A DNA stretch of 44,262 nucleotides from an uncultured Clostridia bacterium (GTDB taxonomy: Bacteria > Bacillota > Clostridia > UMGS1883), in NCBI GenBank assembly GCA_947630975.1, contig CANRJP010000009.1, positions 1-44,262 of the forward strand, read 5' to 3'. Below the pieces are notes generated by a model that saw only the letters and a program-made list of their open reading frames with translations, made no database searches and had not been told where the DNA came from. Shown here piece by piece: positions 14,588 through 21,129 of this stretch. Positions within the stretch are counted from its first letter, which is position 1, and each line of letters begins with the position of its first letter. Made by a program: the position numbers and the translations under genes.

Positions 14588-14943
14588 AAATATCGCCTTT
14601 CATACTAATATATGGATTTATCCCACCGTCAACTGACTGCTGACAAGTCATGTTAAACAGGGGGAAAGCTCGAAAGGGTTCTCCCTTTCGATAGAAAATA
14701 TAAAATTCCGTGGCACGTACACGGAATTTTATACCTTAATCGGGGTAGAAAAATCAATTTATTGATTTTTCGTAAGCGAAAGCGCCCGCCAGCGTGACGC
14801 TGGACCCGTATTTATGCAGTGCTCCATTATTAAGCAGCATTGGAACGAGCCGTAAGGCCAACGATGAAACGGAACGTTTCCGGAAGGGGCGACCGATGGG
14901 GAAACCGTTCGGGTTTCCCCATCGAAAACGCAGTTTTAATATT
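14588..14943. other. Hairpin-rich intergenic stretch
   Basis: No convincing gene. On the minus strand, behind the small ORF, it holds several inverted repeats: CGATGGGGAAACC (14894-14906) with its complement at 14912-14924, AAAATCAATAAATTGATTTT near 14751-14770, and a terminator at 14699-14735. A 69-codon minus-strand frame at 14754-14963 overlaps these palindromes, lacks an SD and overlaps the end of the small ORF. Confidence 0.6.
14699..14735 (-). terminator. Terminator behind the lyase operon
   Basis: TATAAAATTCCGTG (from about 14699) pairs with CACGGAATTTTATA (ending 14733), a 14-bp stem flanked by T-rich sequence. It is the last clear stop for transcripts coming from the lyase and small ORF on the minus strand. 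Confidence 0.7.
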
Positions 14944-15099
14944 TTACCAAACGGCCTCGTCATTTCCGGCGGGATCGGTAACGGTCTGTTCGTTGTCTAT
15001 CCCGGGAAATTCAGCGCTGGCGGTTATGTCGTCCATTACGGTTTTGGCCGGAGTCAGGTCAACCGCCGTAATTTCGGGTGAAATAAATTTCTTCATCAT
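14944..15099 (-). CDS. Small 51-residue protein encoded behind the lyase
   Basis: Starts 12 nt after the lyase stop with a very strong SD, AGGAGGA (complement of 15104-15110), and ATG ATG (complement of 15094-15099), and ends at TAA (complement of 14944-14946). The peptide begins MMKKFISPEITAVDL, is acidic afterwards and ends EAVW. It has no signal peptide, transmembrane segment or cysteine. Short peptides with a KK-[FY]-x-x-PEI opening are frequent in gut clostridia but unassigned. The SD, spacing and operon position argue for a real gene; its role is unknown. Codon use is like the neighbours. Confidence 0.6.
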   Translation of the reverse strand: MMKKFISPEITAVDLTPAKTVMDDITASAEFPGIDNEQTVTDPAGNDEAVW

Positions 15100-15111
15100 A
15101 CATTCCTCCTA

Positions 15112-18100
15112 TCAAAGCTCGGGAACATAGTCGTAATCCGCCGACACGTCGCCGGCCTCGGACTCGTCGATTTCTGTTTCCACAAACTCTACGTTGACGG
15201 ACTCAAGATCCAGAATATCGGCATAGGCGCCGGTTGCGGCCTCGGTGCTGAGTCCCAGCTTGGCGTATTCGGCCTTAAGATTTCCGTCCGCGTCAAACAG
15301 CTTGGCGTAAGCTTCGGCGAAGCCGGGGAAGGTAACGGCTGTGCCCTCCTTGACGTTCTTGGCGATATACGCTAAAACGTCGTTCGCGGCGGCCAGACGG
15401 GAAGGCGTGATGGACGTTCCCTCGCCGTTCACTATGCTGTCGGCCAGCACATTGAACAGGCTGTCAACCGAAGTCTCGCCGTATATCTTCTTGCCATCAA
15501 TCTCAACATAGGGCCTTGCGGCGTAGAGACGGGCCGAGTTGCCGAGTTTGATGTCCTTTATGGTCAGGCGGAACACGTCGCTGGAAAGCTGCTCAAATTC
15601 GGCGTTAACGTTGGTCTTTTGAATGGTATAGCTGCCGTTTTCGTCCTTTTCGTAAGCGCCGTACTTGAAGCCCGCTTTGGTAATATCCTTAACCCGCTCG
15701 GCGTCGATGTTGATTGTAGTGGTAAAAGCTATACCCAGAGCGGCGGAGCCGTCCTCGTTGGTGAGGACGCGGAGCTCGGTGGCGGTGTCGAGCATGGCAA
15801 GCTCGGCTATCTCATCGGCGGTCATGGCGTAGTCGTAAATCTTGAACTCGTCGATAAGGCCGTTGTAGAACTCGCCGCCGGTGCCCCAGTTGGCCTTGCC
15901 TATCTGGAGTACGGATCTGGTGCCCAGCACGTCGGACAGGGAGTAGGCGCTGTCCAGAGTGCCCTTGAGCTGACCGTCAACATAAAGCTCGGTCTTATCT
16001 TTACTGTAAACAACGGTGACGAGCTTCCAGTCGGTGCCGATTTTATCTACCCTGATGTTGCCGGGACGGGCGCCGCTGTTGTTGTAGCGCTCAACGGTCA
16101 GTCCGCCGTTGTCCAGTATGCCAATGTAGTGCTCAAAGTTATTTGTCTGGGTAGACGCGCTGCTGGCGGCGAAGAAGGGCCACCAGTTGGCGGAAGTATT
16201 GTTGACCTTGTTATAGAAGGTGACGGTTATCTCCTCAACGTTTGTCAGGAGCGGGCTTCCGTCCTCGGCAGCCGTGGCGGTGAGCCAGTTGGAGCCTGTG
16301 CCGTCAAGGGACAGAGCCTTGCCGTACTTGCCGTCGGTGAGGACGTTGTCACCGTGGGACTCGGTCTTGCCAAGTCCGCCCTCGAAGCCGGTCTCCGCGT
16401 CGTCGAAGCTCAGGTCGAGGATTATGCCGTCGTAGGCCTCGGCGTCGTAAACGATGCTTACAACGGTGTCCTCGGCCACGGTGCCGGTGAGATTTTCTGT
16501 CGCGGCTTCATTGTAGGTGTAAAGGTTCTTGTTGCCCCGGAAGCTTTCGATTACATAAGAGCTTGCGTCGTACCCGTCGCCAACTCTGGCCTCGAAGGTT
16601 TCGGCGGTGCGAATCTCATTGCCCTCCGCGTCAACATACTTGACGGTGACGGTGGCGGTCTTGATTTCGCAGTCAACAATCTCACGAAGCGAAAAATCGT
16701 CAAGGTAGAGAGATGTGCATTGGTTCATCGAGTATGCTATTGTCGCGTAAATTTCCGCCGCGTTGACAACGTCCTTATTGGAAGTGTCAAGCAGATACTC
16801 GTATGTCAGCCATTTGCCAGCCTCACGAGCCGGGGTTCTGTTAACTCCTCCTGTATTCCATGACGACCAGCCGCCGGCGGCGGGCTTGTGGTTTTCTGTG
16901 CCGTAACCGGCCGATACTGTGGCGGCGTGCATATGTCCGCTGTTGGAATCGGCCACAGCCTCTGTCCAGTATTCGCTGTAAGTGAGTACATACTTTTTGT
17001 TGGGGGCAAGCTTAAAGTATGTCTGAAGGTTATTGTCATTGTTGCTTCCGGTCCATGAATTCTGCTGACTCTGATTTACGTGCAGCGAATTGTTGCCGTC
17101 TTTTGCATAATCGCTTGACTGTACCCAGTTTGCGCCAAGAGTCTGTGGCTTTTTATTGTACGAAGTCCAACCGTCGGTGCCGGTTTCAAAGCTGCCGTTT
17201 TCAATCATGTTTTCACCAAGCGTGATCTCGGCAAGAGCAACGTTGATAATATTCTCGGCATTTGACGCCTTGACCGTAAGGACGGATCTCTCGGTGTCTA
17301 CGATATAGTTCTGACCGCCAAAGCTGTAGATTAACTTATCCGGCGTATATGTGTAGCTCGAGCCGGGCATTACGAATACGCTTTCATTTTCGGAAACGGG
17401 GTCGCCGTTGTGGGTGAACTGTATCTTTACCTCGGCGGCGGGCACGTATCTGGCGGTGAGCTCGTAGGTATTGCCCTCGGCTATCATTACGCTCAAATCG
17501 GAGCTGGCCTTGTCAAGGTAGTAGGTGCTGCCCTCGTATTCAACGGTATCGGGGGCGGAATATGTGTAGATCTTGCCGTCGGAGAGGCCGGTGGTAACGG
17601 TCTTTGCCTCCTGAAGCTGATTTCCGTCCGCGTCCTCGAAGGTGACGTTTACCTTGGTTTCCTTCGTTTCGCCCTCGGTCTTGGTAGTGGTGAGGACAAA
17701 CGTCGGGCCGGGATAGAGAGTGCCGTCAGCGTCCTTAAATTCCGTATTTGTCACAGAAGCAAACTTCCGGCTTCCGCTTGCACTGAGCATGGCAAGTGTA
17801 AACTTTGCGTTACCGCCTTCCTGCATATATTCCTTAAGATTTTTTGTGAAATCAGCAACAAGCACTTCGCCGTCGTCGTTGACAGATCCGCCGTTGGCTT
17901 CGGTGTGATAGCTGTAGCCGGTGTAGGTTCCGTCGTTGATGGTATGCGTCGGCATTTTATTTGAATCAAGTACGAGATCAGTAAGAGTGTCTCTCGTCCA
18001 GTCGCCATAATCCATGAAATAGAAGTGTAGTGTACCCGCAGTATTTTTATCACTAGAATTTTGCGCTATCATGGTCATGCGGAGTTCCGCCTTTTCAACC

Positions 18101-21100
18101 TTGCTCACATCTACGCCGGTAAGGTCAAAGGCCATATACGCATTTCTATTCTGGTAATCCGAACAGCCTGCCTGAATGTAGCTTCTGTTATTTTTGCCGT
18201 CCTCTTTGTCACGATAACCAACGAATGTGTCCTTATCCGCCGTATACTCTTCTTCAACAACGGTGGTGACGCTGCCCACGCCAACGGCGTAAACATAATC
18301 TCCGTCCGGAGTGAATTCAACGTCCTCGCCGTTGAAGGTTACAGATGTTGCGTTCGGGGCGTAGAGCTTGACTGCCTGAGCCTCGTCTTTAGTGGCGGTG
18401 AGGTTTTCACCGGTTATGGCTACGGTTTCGCCGTTTACGGTCACGCCGATCGAGGTTATAGGCTGCTTGGAGTCTATAATGACCTGATCGCCCTTTGTAA
18501 GTCTTTGTCCGTTCACAAGGCCGTATACGGTATCGCCCGCGAAGGCGGCCTTGGCGTCGGTGGTGTAACCGCCGAAGGCGCCGTCGGCGTTATCGGTGTT
18601 CTTTACGTAAAAGTTGAGGTTGTCGCCGCCCGTAACGGTCACGGCGGAGCTGTCAAGCCCCTCGGTATCGTTTAATGTGAGGTTCGCGGCTTCTTCACCG
18701 GCCCTGCGGGGCACGATAAGGGTGCTGAACTTAACGTCCGCGCCGGTCTTTTTAAAGGAGGCGTACTTGCTGGAGGCCACAAGGCCGTAGTCGGCGCTGA
18801 AATAGCCGTCCCTTACCTCGGTTTCGGCGTCGGCGTTGTAAAGGTCGACGTTGGCACCGTCCGCGAAGTTGGTGGAAACGCTGTGACTGTCCGCGTCCGC
18901 CTCGGCGCCGCTGGAGGGCATAAAGTGCCAGTTCTGACGGTAAACCTGACTGTCCTTATTGCCGTCCACATAGTCGGCCACAAAGGTGAGGCCGTCCATA
19001 CCCTTAAGGAACAGCACGTTGCGGGTGTGCTTGGTGTCGGGATAGCCGTGCTGTGTGCTTGCGGCAAAGGTGAACAGATCGTTGCTTGCGTAGGTGCTTA
19101 TCTTTTCGGCGGACTGCGCATGGGCAGCCATGCTCACTCCCTCGGCCTCGACGGTGTTGTGGGCGCTGGCATAGCGCAGCTCGGTATAAATTGAGTTGTT
19201 GGGGTTGGAGTAGCCGTAGCGTCCGCTGTCCACAAGCAGGGGCTTGCCGTAGGCGTACATAAGCACCTGATTGGAGTCGGGGTGATAGTGGCCGTCGTTG
19301 GGGTTGTTCACAAAGGAAACATAGGTAGTTTCCTTGGGATCCCAGCTTGTGCGCATATATACGGAGTTGGCGTCGTCGTAGAGTACGGACTTGGCGTTCT
19401 CTACCTCGGCGTTGGAGGGATCGTCCGCTCCCTTTACATAGGCGTTGAGCACGGGGTCGTTAAGATAGTCGGCTATCATCTTGAACTCCGGCATCTTATC
19501 CCGGTAGTTGGAATCGCCCACGTTGGAGTCCCAGCCGTCGGGGAAGAAGCTCTGGGCCGCGTTGCGGGCGGCGTAGGTGAGCTTGGTCTTGAAGTCGGCG
19601 CTCATGGGGTTGCCGGACTTTTCGGCGGCTATGGCGCAGTCGGTAAAGAGCTTAACGCACCACTCCGCGTAGGAGGGGCCGGCCTCGGTGAAGCTCATAT
19701 CTTTGTTGTAGAGCAGATTAAGGGTGTATTCGACGTTGTACTCTACCTTGTCACGGAATTTGTCGTGATCCTTAAGCTCGGGCAGGAACTCAACGGCCTT
19801 GAAGAAGCCGGCGTTGGCGACTATTCTCCAGTTGCTCCACCAGGGTTGATCGCTGGTTATATCCAGACCGTTCAGGTAGTTGCAGTCGCCCCACATGAAG
19901 GAGAGTATGTTCACGAACTCGTCCAGCTTATTGTCGAACACGTTTGTGCCCAAAAGGGCGTCGACAATGTCCACCCAGCGGTTCAGGCGTTCGCCTGTCT
20001 CAAGGGTGCGGTTATAGCCGTAACTCATCTGAGTGGCGAAGGCGTCCATCAGGTCGACCAGCTTGGGGCCGAATTCCGCGCCGGGGTACTGTTCGTGATA
20101 GGGGTGAGTCTCGTTATACTTCTGCTCATCCTTGAGGTAGGACAGATACTCGTAGGCCATGGGCTTGCCGTACCAGAAGCGGGCGGTAACATTGTGATAC
20201 TCGGCGTCGGCGTTGGCGTCGGTGGCGCCTTTAGCGCCCCAGGTGGGATCAACGGCATTTTCATAGGAAAAGATATTTCCCTTTATGGCGTTCCATGTCT
20301 GCGTGTTTTCGTCCCAGGTGGTGTCGCCGATGTTGATCACCAGCACGTCCTTGGGGCCGGTGGTGCAGTCGGAAGCCAGCGCGGCGTTGACAACCAGCTT
20401 GGCGGAGGTTATGTTTTCACCGGCCATATCCGCCAGCGGGAAGTTCATATAGGCCCGGCGGGTATTGGCGCCGACTGGGTCGGAACCGGAGCCGTCCTCC
20501 TTGACATCAAGCTGCTGGGCGTCGCCGTACTTGGTGTCCTTATTTTGAGAGCTTATGTAGGTGTCGTTGTCGGCGACGACGGTTTCACTTCCGCCGCCAA
20601 ACGTGACCTCAAGTCTGGGAGCGACGGCGTCGCCGGCCTCCTTGGACTTGACATAAACGGGGTACTGCTGCTTGTCGCCGGCCATGAGCATAAAGCTGAC
20701 GGCCCCGTTGGCCAGCTCCTGCTTTACGCGGTCGGTGACGTCGATCTCATAATCTGTAAAGTCGGTGTTCTCTACGGTAAATTCCGCCTGCCACATATCG
20801 AACTCATAAGGTCCGGTGAGGATGTTCCTCATGGGCAGCACGGCCATGCCGTAGTTTTCGTCGGCCTCGGTAACGCCGCTGCCGGTGAATTTGTTGTCCT
20901 CGTGGCGCTGCTTAAAGTATTTGAGCAGCTCTTCCTTGGCCACTTGGTAGTCTCTCTTGTCCACGGCGTTCTTTACTGCGGAAAGCTCGGGGTTGTTGGC
21001 GTAGTCCAGCTTGGCGAAGAAGTCGCTGTCAGCCGTGTATGCGGCGCTCGCCCCCATGGGGAAGGCGGCCAGAACGGTGAACACCATCGCCAGAGCCAAA

Positions 21101-21129
21101 ACTAAGGCCATTACTCTTGACATTTCCAT
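15112..21129 (-). CDS. Giant secreted heparinase II/III-type polysaccharide lyase
   Basis: A 2005-residue exported protein; signal peptide 1-29 (ends ASA). Residues ~35-170 are unassigned. About 180-300 is a DNRLRE/CBM96-like domain (DNDTYISS, RRAYMNFPL). About 310-560 is an all-alpha toroid with WWSNWRIVANAGFF near 428 and EAGPSYAEW near 485; ~590-860 is a heparinase II/III C-terminal beta domain with GHYHPDSNQVLMYAYGKPLL near 612 and SAHNTVEAEG near 655. A second CBM96-like domain (~960-1110, DKDTFVGYRD) follows, then MucBP-like modules (~1155-1300 and ~1490-1565), a carbohydrate-binding jelly-roll (~1305-1485, ENGSFETGTDGW), a LamG-like domain (~1567-1775) and a C-terminal region unlike known anchors. 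It should cleave uronic-acid-containing polysaccharides by beta-elimination; substrate unknown. The SD AGGAGG fits the ATG at 21129. Confidence 0.88.
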   Translation of the reverse strand: MEMSRVMALVLALAMVFTVLAAFPMGASAAYTADSDFFAKLDYANNPELSAVKNAVDKRDYQVAKEELLKYFKQRHEDNKFTGSGVTEADENYGMAVLPMRNILTGPYEFDMWQAEFTVENTDFTDYEIDVTDRVKQELANGAVSFMLMAGDKQQYPVYVKSKEAGDAVAPRLEVTFGGGSETVVADNDTYISSQNKDTKYGDAQQLDVKEDGSGSDPVGANTRRAYMNFPLADMAGENITSAKLVVNAALASDCTTGPKDVLVINIGDTTWDENTQTWNAIKGNIFSYENAVDPTWGAKGATDANADAEYHNVTARFWYGKPMAYEYLSYLKDEQKYNETHPYHEQYPGAEFGPKLVDLMDAFATQMSYGYNRTLETGERLNRWVDIVDALLGTNVFDNKLDEFVNILSFMWGDCNYLNGLDITSDQPWWSNWRIVANAGFFKAVEFLPELKDHDKFRDKVEYNVEYTLNLLYNKDMSFTEAGPSYAEWCVKLFTDCAIAAEKSGNPMSADFKTKLTYAARNAAQSFFPDGWDSNVGDSNYRDKMPEFKMIADYLNDPVLNAYVKGADDPSNAEVENAKSVLYDDANSVYMRTSWDPKETTYVSFVNNPNDGHYHPDSNQVLMYAYGKPLLVDSGRYGYSNPNNSIYTELRYASAHNTVEAEGVSMAAHAQSAEKISTYASNDLFTFAASTQHGYPDTKHTRNVLFLKGMDGLTFVADYVDGNKDSQVYRQNWHFMPSSGAEADADSHSVSTNFADGANVDLYNADAETEVRDGYFSADYGLVASSKYASFKKTGADVKFSTLIVPRRAGEEAANLTLNDTEGLDSSAVTVTGGDNLNFYVKNTDNADGAFGGYTTDAKAAFAGDTVYGLVNGQRLTKGDQVIIDSKQPITSIGVTVNGETVAITGENLTATKDEAQAVKLYAPNATSVTFNGEDVEFTPDGDYVYAVGVGSVTTVVEEEYTADKDTFVGYRDKEDGKNNRSYIQAGCSDYQNRNAYMAFDLTGVDVSKVEKAELRMTMIAQNSSDKNTAGTLHFYFMDYGDWTRDTLTDLVLDSNKMPTHTINDGTYTGYSYHTEANGGSVNDDGEVLVADFTKNLKEYMQEGGNAKFTLAMLSASGSRKFASVTNTEFKDADGTLYPGPTFVLTTTKTEGETKETKVNVTFEDADGNQLQEAKTVTTGLSDGKIYTYSAPDTVEYEGSTYYLDKASSDLSVMIAEGNTYELTARYVPAAEVKIQFTHNGDPVSENESVFVMPGSSYTYTPDKLIYSFGGQNYIVDTERSVLTVKASNAENIINVALAEITLGENMIENGSFETGTDGWTSYNKKPQTLGANWVQSSDYAKDGNNSLHVNQSQQNSWTGSNNDNNLQTYFKLAPNKKYVLTYSEYWTEAVADSNSGHMHAATVSAGYGTENHKPAAGGWSSWNTGGVNRTPAREAGKWLTYEYLLDTSNKDVVNAAEIYATIAYSMNQCTSLYLDDFSLREIVDCEIKTATVTVKYVDAEGNEIRTAETFEARVGDGYDASSYVIESFRGNKNLYTYNEAATENLTGTVAEDTVVSIVYDAEAYDGIILDLSFDDAETGFEGGLGKTESHGDNVLTDGKYGKALSLDGTGSNWLTATAAEDGSPLLTNVEEITVTFYNKVNNTSANWWPFFAASSASTQTNNFEHYIGILDNGGLTVERYNNSGARPGNIRVDKIGTDWKLVTVVYSKDKTELYVDGQLKGTLDSAYSLSDVLGTRSVLQIGKANWGTGGEFYNGLIDEFKIYDYAMTADEIAELAMLDTATELRVLTNEDGSAALGIAFTTTINIDAERVKDITKAGFKYGAYEKDENGSYTIQKTNVNAEFEQLSSDVFRLTIKDIKLGNSARLYAARPYVEIDGKKIYGETSVDSLFNVLADSIVNGEGTSITPSRLAAANDVLAYIAKNVKEGTAVTFPGFAEAYAKLFDADGNLKAEYAKLGLSTEAATGAYADILDLESVNVEFVETEIDESEAGDVSADYDYVPEL

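Follow-up and report, generated by a model that had tools for sequence, protein, structure and literature searches.

We found that the 51-residue ORF at positions 14,944 to 15,099 is a real, conserved coding gene, and that its product belongs to a large unnamed family of peptides whose genes gut clostridia put behind many secreted proteins. In our judgement it is fairly likely that the product is a RiPP precursor, a ribosomally synthesised peptide that enzymes then modify, and that it acts in the manner of the linear polyphosphorylated peptides (LPPs) described from Bacillota (Popov et al., 2026; PMC13381572), with one precursor for each secreted protein. Our claim is one of working like an LPP precursor and not one of membership in that class: no kinase or protease was seen in the examined stretches of this genome, and NTP_transf_5 genes are missing from two genus genomes that have the peptides.

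The peptide gene and its pairing with secreted proteins

The window (the whole stretch of DNA analysed, 44,262 nucleotides) contains the following features, all on the reverse strand.

14893..14925, reverse strand: 14-bp hairpin just 3' of the peptide stop, a possible transcript end (-31.5 kcal/mol, z -4.36)
14944..15099, reverse strand: peptide gene, 51 codons, from the ORF read, its relatives and frame conservation
14947..15033, reverse strand: core-like part, residues 23-51, with a serine at residue 27 of 51 and a conserved D and final W
15034..15099, reverse strand: leader-like part, residues 1-22 (F5, P8, I10, L15, V21-M22), its boundary drawn from conservation and its leader role putative
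15100..15111, reverse strand: 12-nt spacer TAGGAGGAATGT with the Shine-Dalgarno sequence AGGAGGA, between the TGA of the 2005-aa ORF and the peptide ATG
15112..21129, reverse strand: secreted protein of 2005 aa, of the heparinase II/III type, in which CBM96, MucBP and LamG-like domains were matched
15115..15222, reverse strand: C-terminal tag of the 2005-aa protein, one of 18 in the genome, from profile and sequence searches
15223..15804, reverse strand: C-terminal module before the tag, predicted to be folded at moderate confidence, with generic Ig/FnIII-like matches

The peptide gene opens with ATG ATG, and most relatives begin at the position of the second of these codons (15096); the peptide ends in EAVW. 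The first-pass annotation had described a strong AGGAGGA, the double start, a 12-nt gap after a 6-kb gene and the EAVW end, and every one of these details holds. As the hairpin lies directly 3' of the peptide stop, it may mark the end of a single transcript for the lyase and the peptide. It lacks a T-run and was not scored as a terminator. No promoter-like site was found within 14600-15300.

Frame conservation in relatives had been put forward as the check on this gene. Among ten members of the window's peptide subfamily we found no frame-breaking indels, and dN was about 0.1-0.55 of dS in 43 of 45 pairs, those with computable dS; dS was saturated in the other two. Additionally, a mini-ORF opening with [F/Y/W]xxP stood no more than 40 nt downstream of 18 of the 162 distinct genes of at least 150 aa in the examined stretches of the window's genome (C2 and C69, which have identical ends, were entered once), compared with 8 of 3240 in shuffled downstream DNA. 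These 18 cases are 17 tagged genes and one spurious ORF in L228. The peptide of the window had no match in Pfam or NCBIfam at E<=10, which fits the earlier remark that it belonged to no family that could be named, and an NCBIfam search with 50 genus relatives of the peptide gave no convincing match (best E 0.021).

When used as a query, the peptide returned four relatives in its own genome, each directly behind a large ORF, and these ORFs end in similar C-terminal sequences. A search with this common end gave 18 large ORFs, and a peptide follows each of them at a distance of 12-19 nt with a Shine-Dalgarno sequence. A peptide profile and a tag profile both scored strongly 18 times, on one and the same set of contigs, and each had a single further match at chance level (E 0.57 and 0.3, respectively); tags and peptides are paired one to one, 18 to 18. 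The consensus of the peptides is MKKxFxxPxI....L.....[IV]M...D...W. The 2005-aa protein has a visible signal sequence, and, judged by eye, 17 of the 18 tagged ORFs have a signal-like N-terminus; the 18th, C83, starts at a contig end, and C21, one of the 17, lacks its true start for the same reason. The Pfam content of the tagged ORFs is mixed: heparinase, BNR_4, LamG, Big_4, CBM_4_9, PI-PLC-X, an Ig-like domain, or none. Seven different tagged proteins (C33, C152, C25a, C25b, C129, C44 and C57) share a near-identical signal sequence, MRIKK-LSLAVVLAMVLTVVPMFG..., and C21 keeps the remainder of it, so both ends are common to these tagged proteins.

The C-terminal tag and the distribution of the pairs

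The tag reads approximately LSLDSVNIEFVETLIEExEAxGADAxxDFIPEL and forms the extreme C-terminus of the protein. It is acidic and its final residue is L, I or V in 83 of 85 cases. C-terminal sorting signals such as LPXTG and PEP-CTERM are likewise short tags common to many otherwise unlike secreted proteins of one genome. The genus tag resembles them in this respect, but it differs in being acidic and in being accompanied by a dedicated peptide gene. Reading the protein ends directly, we saw no LPXTG, transmembrane segment or basic tail. The tag of the 18 large proteins is a candidate sorting or processing signal.

Similar peptides had been said to recur in gut clostridia, and we found them across genomes of the genus, the class and family f12. 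All seven other genus genomes drawn contain them (7, 7, 12, 1, 9, 11 and 24 copies), and weak peptide matches occurred in 2 of 52 genomes outside the genus. The genus peptides outside the window's genome number 71; two lie at contig ends and were left out, which leaves 69 assessable. With a tag profile built from the window's genome alone, a tagged ORF stood upstream of 50 of these 69: 49 of 50 peptides of G001, G002, G003 and G007, and only 1 of 19 assessable peptides of G004, G005 and G006. When that profile was run against whole genomes, G005 and G006 gave no tag match at E<=0.1. The protein ends of G004, G005 and G006 have diverged (for example, LEEIEFVFE...DFVEEI), and with an all-genus end profile, which was built from the same sequences and is not independent of them, 65 of 69 peptides had a tagged ORF 12-23 nt before them. 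The exceptions are L187, L198 and L205, which lie behind untagged ORFs (that of L205 with a tag remnant, E 0.006), and L209, a peptide with no ORF upstream. Within the genus peptides, a Trp is invariant in 50 of 50 aligned sequences and an Asp is present in 47 of 50. One tagged ORF without a peptide behind it was seen, in G002 (L096/L312 2480-2567, contig C5), and the ORF that follows it presumably resembles LemA. The named records that carry the tag are clostridia assembled from rabbit-gut metagenomes.

Across the class, 23 of 391 genomes were matched by a profile of 50 genus peptides, 6 from the genus and 17 outside it, the latter including G100 of family f12 with 8 copies. Matches between the genus and other lineages were weak (best E 4e-5). 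In 18 outside-genus loci, an ORF preceded 16 peptides, at distances of -4 to 47 nt; with a longer flank, 15 of 20 loci were paired as scored by a script, and 10 of 11 complete upstream frames were signal-like at the start as judged by eye. A profile of 14 f12 peptides, which were drawn out of six of the f12 genomes then searched, was positive in 33 of 61 f12 genomes, with a maximum of 27 copies. The f12 leader reads [FY]xxPx....F..EN[IV][IV]TxS, and the C-terminal Trp that is invariant in the genus is missing from the f12 peptides. The genus tag is absent from the f12 proteins, many of which have another common C-terminal end. Thus, the tag is a genus trait, whereas the pairing with a peptide is a wider one.

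The tag and the peptide behave differently when genomes are compared. For the last 8 residues of the tag, non-orthologous pairs were 1.29 BLOSUM units per residue more similar within than between genomes, a difference reached in 0 of 1000 label shuffles (84 rows, with one duplicate dropped and two untagged ends kept). The peptide leader showed no species signature (-0.08; 906 of 1000 shuffles), and the last 18 residues of the peptide showed a small within-species effect across all genomes (0.16; 3 of 1000) that faded in a five-genome subset (75 of 1000). In each species these last residues change in concert, and in the window's genome they do so in 18 large proteins, so we suggest that each species probably has a single factor that reads the tag; the individual peptide is unlikely to be that reader. 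Gene conversion may be the source of the homogenised tag, though the leader, only 12-23 nt away, has no species signature.

What the peptide itself tracks more closely is a different part of the protein. One peptide subfamily is found behind three N-terminal architectures (heparinase-type, BNR_4-type and a third kind) that have their C-terminal parts in common, which rules out the idea that the peptide is tied to the catalytic domain. Over 81 pairs, peptide similarity correlated with similarity of the C-terminal module at r 0.62 (0.57 with the tag held fixed) and with that of the tag at 0.47 (0.38 with the module held fixed). Judged by these comparisons, the peptide goes with the C-terminal module, not with the lyase domain. 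The link to the lyase that was first proposed is too narrow, as a 72% identical peptide lies behind a BNR_4 protein of the same genome and relatives lie behind a third architecture; these proteins have the C-terminal module and the tag in common.

This tracking could also be explained if the peptide were a dedicated partner or chaperone, which would bind, unmodified, to the C-terminal module of the preceding protein during its synthesis or export, while its constant N-terminus docked on a shared factor in the cytosol, possibly the RRE protein described below. The one-to-one pairing, with translational coupling likely, and the lack of a signal sequence in the peptide would suit such a role. However, joint duplication could produce the module tracking as well, and the kinase, protease and exporter genes that lie beside such peptides in other genera would be left unexplained. 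Moreover, two read-through fusion structure models (the window and L094; 13 sequences each) contained no docked complex of peptide and module: the module folded at moderate confidence, and the tag and the peptide were almost entirely below pLDDT 50. Fold matches for the module were to generic beta-domains only, none at E<=0.001. We consider a partner or chaperone unlikely. The absence of docking in these models is also weak evidence against the ‘secretion helper’ among the three roles (secretion helper, signal or peptide precursor) offered by the first-pass annotation; the helper is unsupported and the peptide precursor fares best.

RRE genes, their neighbours and the comparison with LPPs

According to the LPP paper, discrete RREs bind a [Y/W]xxPx[L/V/I/F/A] leader motif, phosphorylation of core Ser3 is kinase-dependent, and removal of the leader by an SpI-like protease is RRE-dependent; in lasso peptides, by the same account, a [Y/W]xxP leader motif is bound by a discrete RRE (PMC13381572). 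We found a discrete PqqD/RRE gene, scoring over the PqqD cut-off, in 8 of 8 genus genomes, and in all 8 it lies directly before ispG (L249, L251, L253, L254, L256, L257, L258 and L260). For a RiPP factor, ispG is an unexpected neighbour. The genus RREs are 39-42% identical to the cluster RREs of f12 and G039, and that of the window's genome matches NCBIfam lasso PqqD models below their cut-offs. The leader of the peptides resembles the RRE-bound motif: all 50 aligned genus sequences have its P and [I/V/L], but all 50 also have F, and not Y or W, at its first position; in other genera that residue is F or Y. PqqD matches over the cut-off also occurred in 3 of 14 control genomes.

In family f12 the RRE and the peptide occur together. 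Among 61 genomes, 29 had both, 21 neither, 4 the peptide only and 7 the RRE only (Fisher p 1e-6; p 0.002 without genus g55), values that are uncorrected for relatedness and use an RRE threshold of E<=1e-10 chosen after the list was seen. When all matches over the Pfam cut-off were counted, the corresponding numbers were 31, 18, 2 and 10 (p 1e-6; p 0.01 without g55). By genus, 10 of 17 f12 genera had both and 5 had neither.

The neighbourhoods of these genes resemble LPP clusters. Within 1.5 kb of 20 of the 24 best-scoring f12 RRE loci there is an HprK-like (12), an S26/signal-peptidase-like (10) or an MsbA-like ABC (1) gene, the HprK-like and S26-like labels being based on motifs and on NCBIfam matches below curated cut-offs (for S26-like genes TIGR02228, best E 5e-6). 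Of 20 peptide loci from outside the genus, 6 have an HprK-like gene after the peptide. The order of large or secreted ORF, peptide and HprK-like kinase was seen in six other genera, in five of the six also with an RRE and a signal-peptidase-like protease, and in three with an MsbA-like exporter. In G113 the order is large ORF, peptide, 146-aa ORF, HprK-like, RRE, S26-like, two NTP-transferase-like and MsbA-like ABC genes; in G023, from the window's own order, it is secreted protein, peptide, 139-aa ORF, HprK-like, RRE, S26-like and ABC genes. G039 and G235 have peptide, HprK-like, RRE and S26-like genes, G292 has the HprK-like gene 3' of the peptide and the RRE, S26-like and ABC genes 5' of it, and G153, a short contig, has the HprK-like gene only. 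The peptide lies inside the biosynthetic cluster in G113, G023, G039, G235 and G292, and the genes around it correspond to the core set of LPPs. MsbA-like genes also adjoin the RRE in G234 and G425.

Within the window's genus, HprK-like genes were found in G004, G005 and G006 and an S26-like gene in G005 only. In G005 (L246 747-3069, contig C2) an RRE fused to an HprK-like kinase lies near the S26-like gene and a 129-aa ORF opening MKMYEKPIVL, a compact LPP-like cluster. Neither a kinase nor a protease was seen in the examined stretches of the window's genome, where the 18 precursors are scattered and none is at the RRE. NTP_transf_5 (PF14907) was present in 6 of 8 genus genomes; as neither G001 (7 peptides) nor G007 (24 peptides) has it, we rejected it as an obligate partner. 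The window's genome has seven such genes (L301-L307), several in polysaccharide-type loci and none beside a tagged pair.

Set against the LPP paper (PMC13381572), our peptides share with LPPs short precursors, a conserved N-terminal xxPx[hydrophobic] motif, a variable C-terminus and a discrete RRE; in related genera the peptide also has as neighbours genes for an HprK-like kinase and an SpI-like protease as well as NTP-transferase-like and MsbA-like genes. They differ in having F for Y/W at the first motif position in the window's genus. Furthermore, LPP clusters contain one to three precursors, whereas a genus genome has up to 24, scattered, each behind a large tagged ORF, with the RRE before ispG. 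The words ‘secreted’ and ‘surface protein’ do not occur in the text of that paper (PMC13381572), and we found no description of such peptide-protein pairs in the open-licence PubMed Central literature. The dispersed pairing and the species-homogenised tag both look new.

The RRE might instead serve some other modifying enzyme, such as a radical-SAM enzyme with the invariant Trp near the C-terminus as its target, which would make the peptide a RiPP precursor of another class. The RRE before ispG and the RRE-like leader would fit this equally, and the invariant Trp and near-invariant Asp of the genus peptides, a feature that the f12 peptides lack, would be accounted for. However, no such enzyme was seen beside the RRE or the peptides in the examined stretches, and we hold this to be quite unlikely. 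For lasso peptides, the likeness is in the discrete RRE (B1) and the [Y/W]xxP-type leader; none of 14 genomes had a match to the B2 leader peptidase (PF13471) at E<=0.01, and we set this class aside. That the ORF is a chance or decaying frame without function, as its shortness and its lack of Pfam or NCBIfam matches might suggest, is refuted by the conserved frame, the Shine-Dalgarno sequence and the position, and its probability is negligible.

A proposed model for a modified peptide at the cell surface

We return to the reading that the peptide works like an LPP precursor. We propose that its F-x2-P-x-[I/V] leader (F5-P8-I10) would be bound by the discrete RRE encoded before ispG. By analogy with LPPs the modification is probably phosphorylation, and a kinase would, by that analogy only, phosphorylate an early-core serine soon after V21-M22. 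Serine is found within core residues 1-8 in 79 of 86 distinct peptides, compared with 44.8 expected, and within core residues 1-3 in 33, compared with 20.2 expected. A protease would then cut near the [I/V]-M site and the core would be exported after cleavage, and the modified peptide would presumably be used at the cell surface. Because the peptide gene begins 12 nt after the stop of the secreted protein, each protein would be produced along with a modified peptide of its own.

The tag is probably read by a separate factor that is common within a species. More tentatively, we suggest a paired surface system as one possibility: the tag would be read by a shared, species-specific factor, and each protein would be co-made with its own exported, modified peptide, which would act as a ligand, linker or coat.

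If this surface system is real, ordinary secreted proteins would have RiPPs as their dedicated accessories, as many as 27 in a genome, and RiPPs would not be products of isolated clusters. If the LPP-like reading is true, the RiPP class described in 2026, known from compact clusters, would come to include dispersed genes in gut clostridia. Modified peptides would be linked to surface proteins and to enzymes that act outside the cell, and a purpose would be found for small genes that are passed over in annotation.

Two further observations concern the loci with biosynthetic genes. In G235 (L388 8772-9114, contig C5), two near-identical tandem peptide genes lie behind a 2907-codon ORF and are followed by the HprK-like and RRE genes. 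Finally, genes for SLH-domain proteins adjoin RRE or HprK-like genes in G006 (L252 6923-8473), G292 (L391 7909-9513) and G153 (L392 2173-3759), neighbours that hint at a tie between these peptides and the cell surface.
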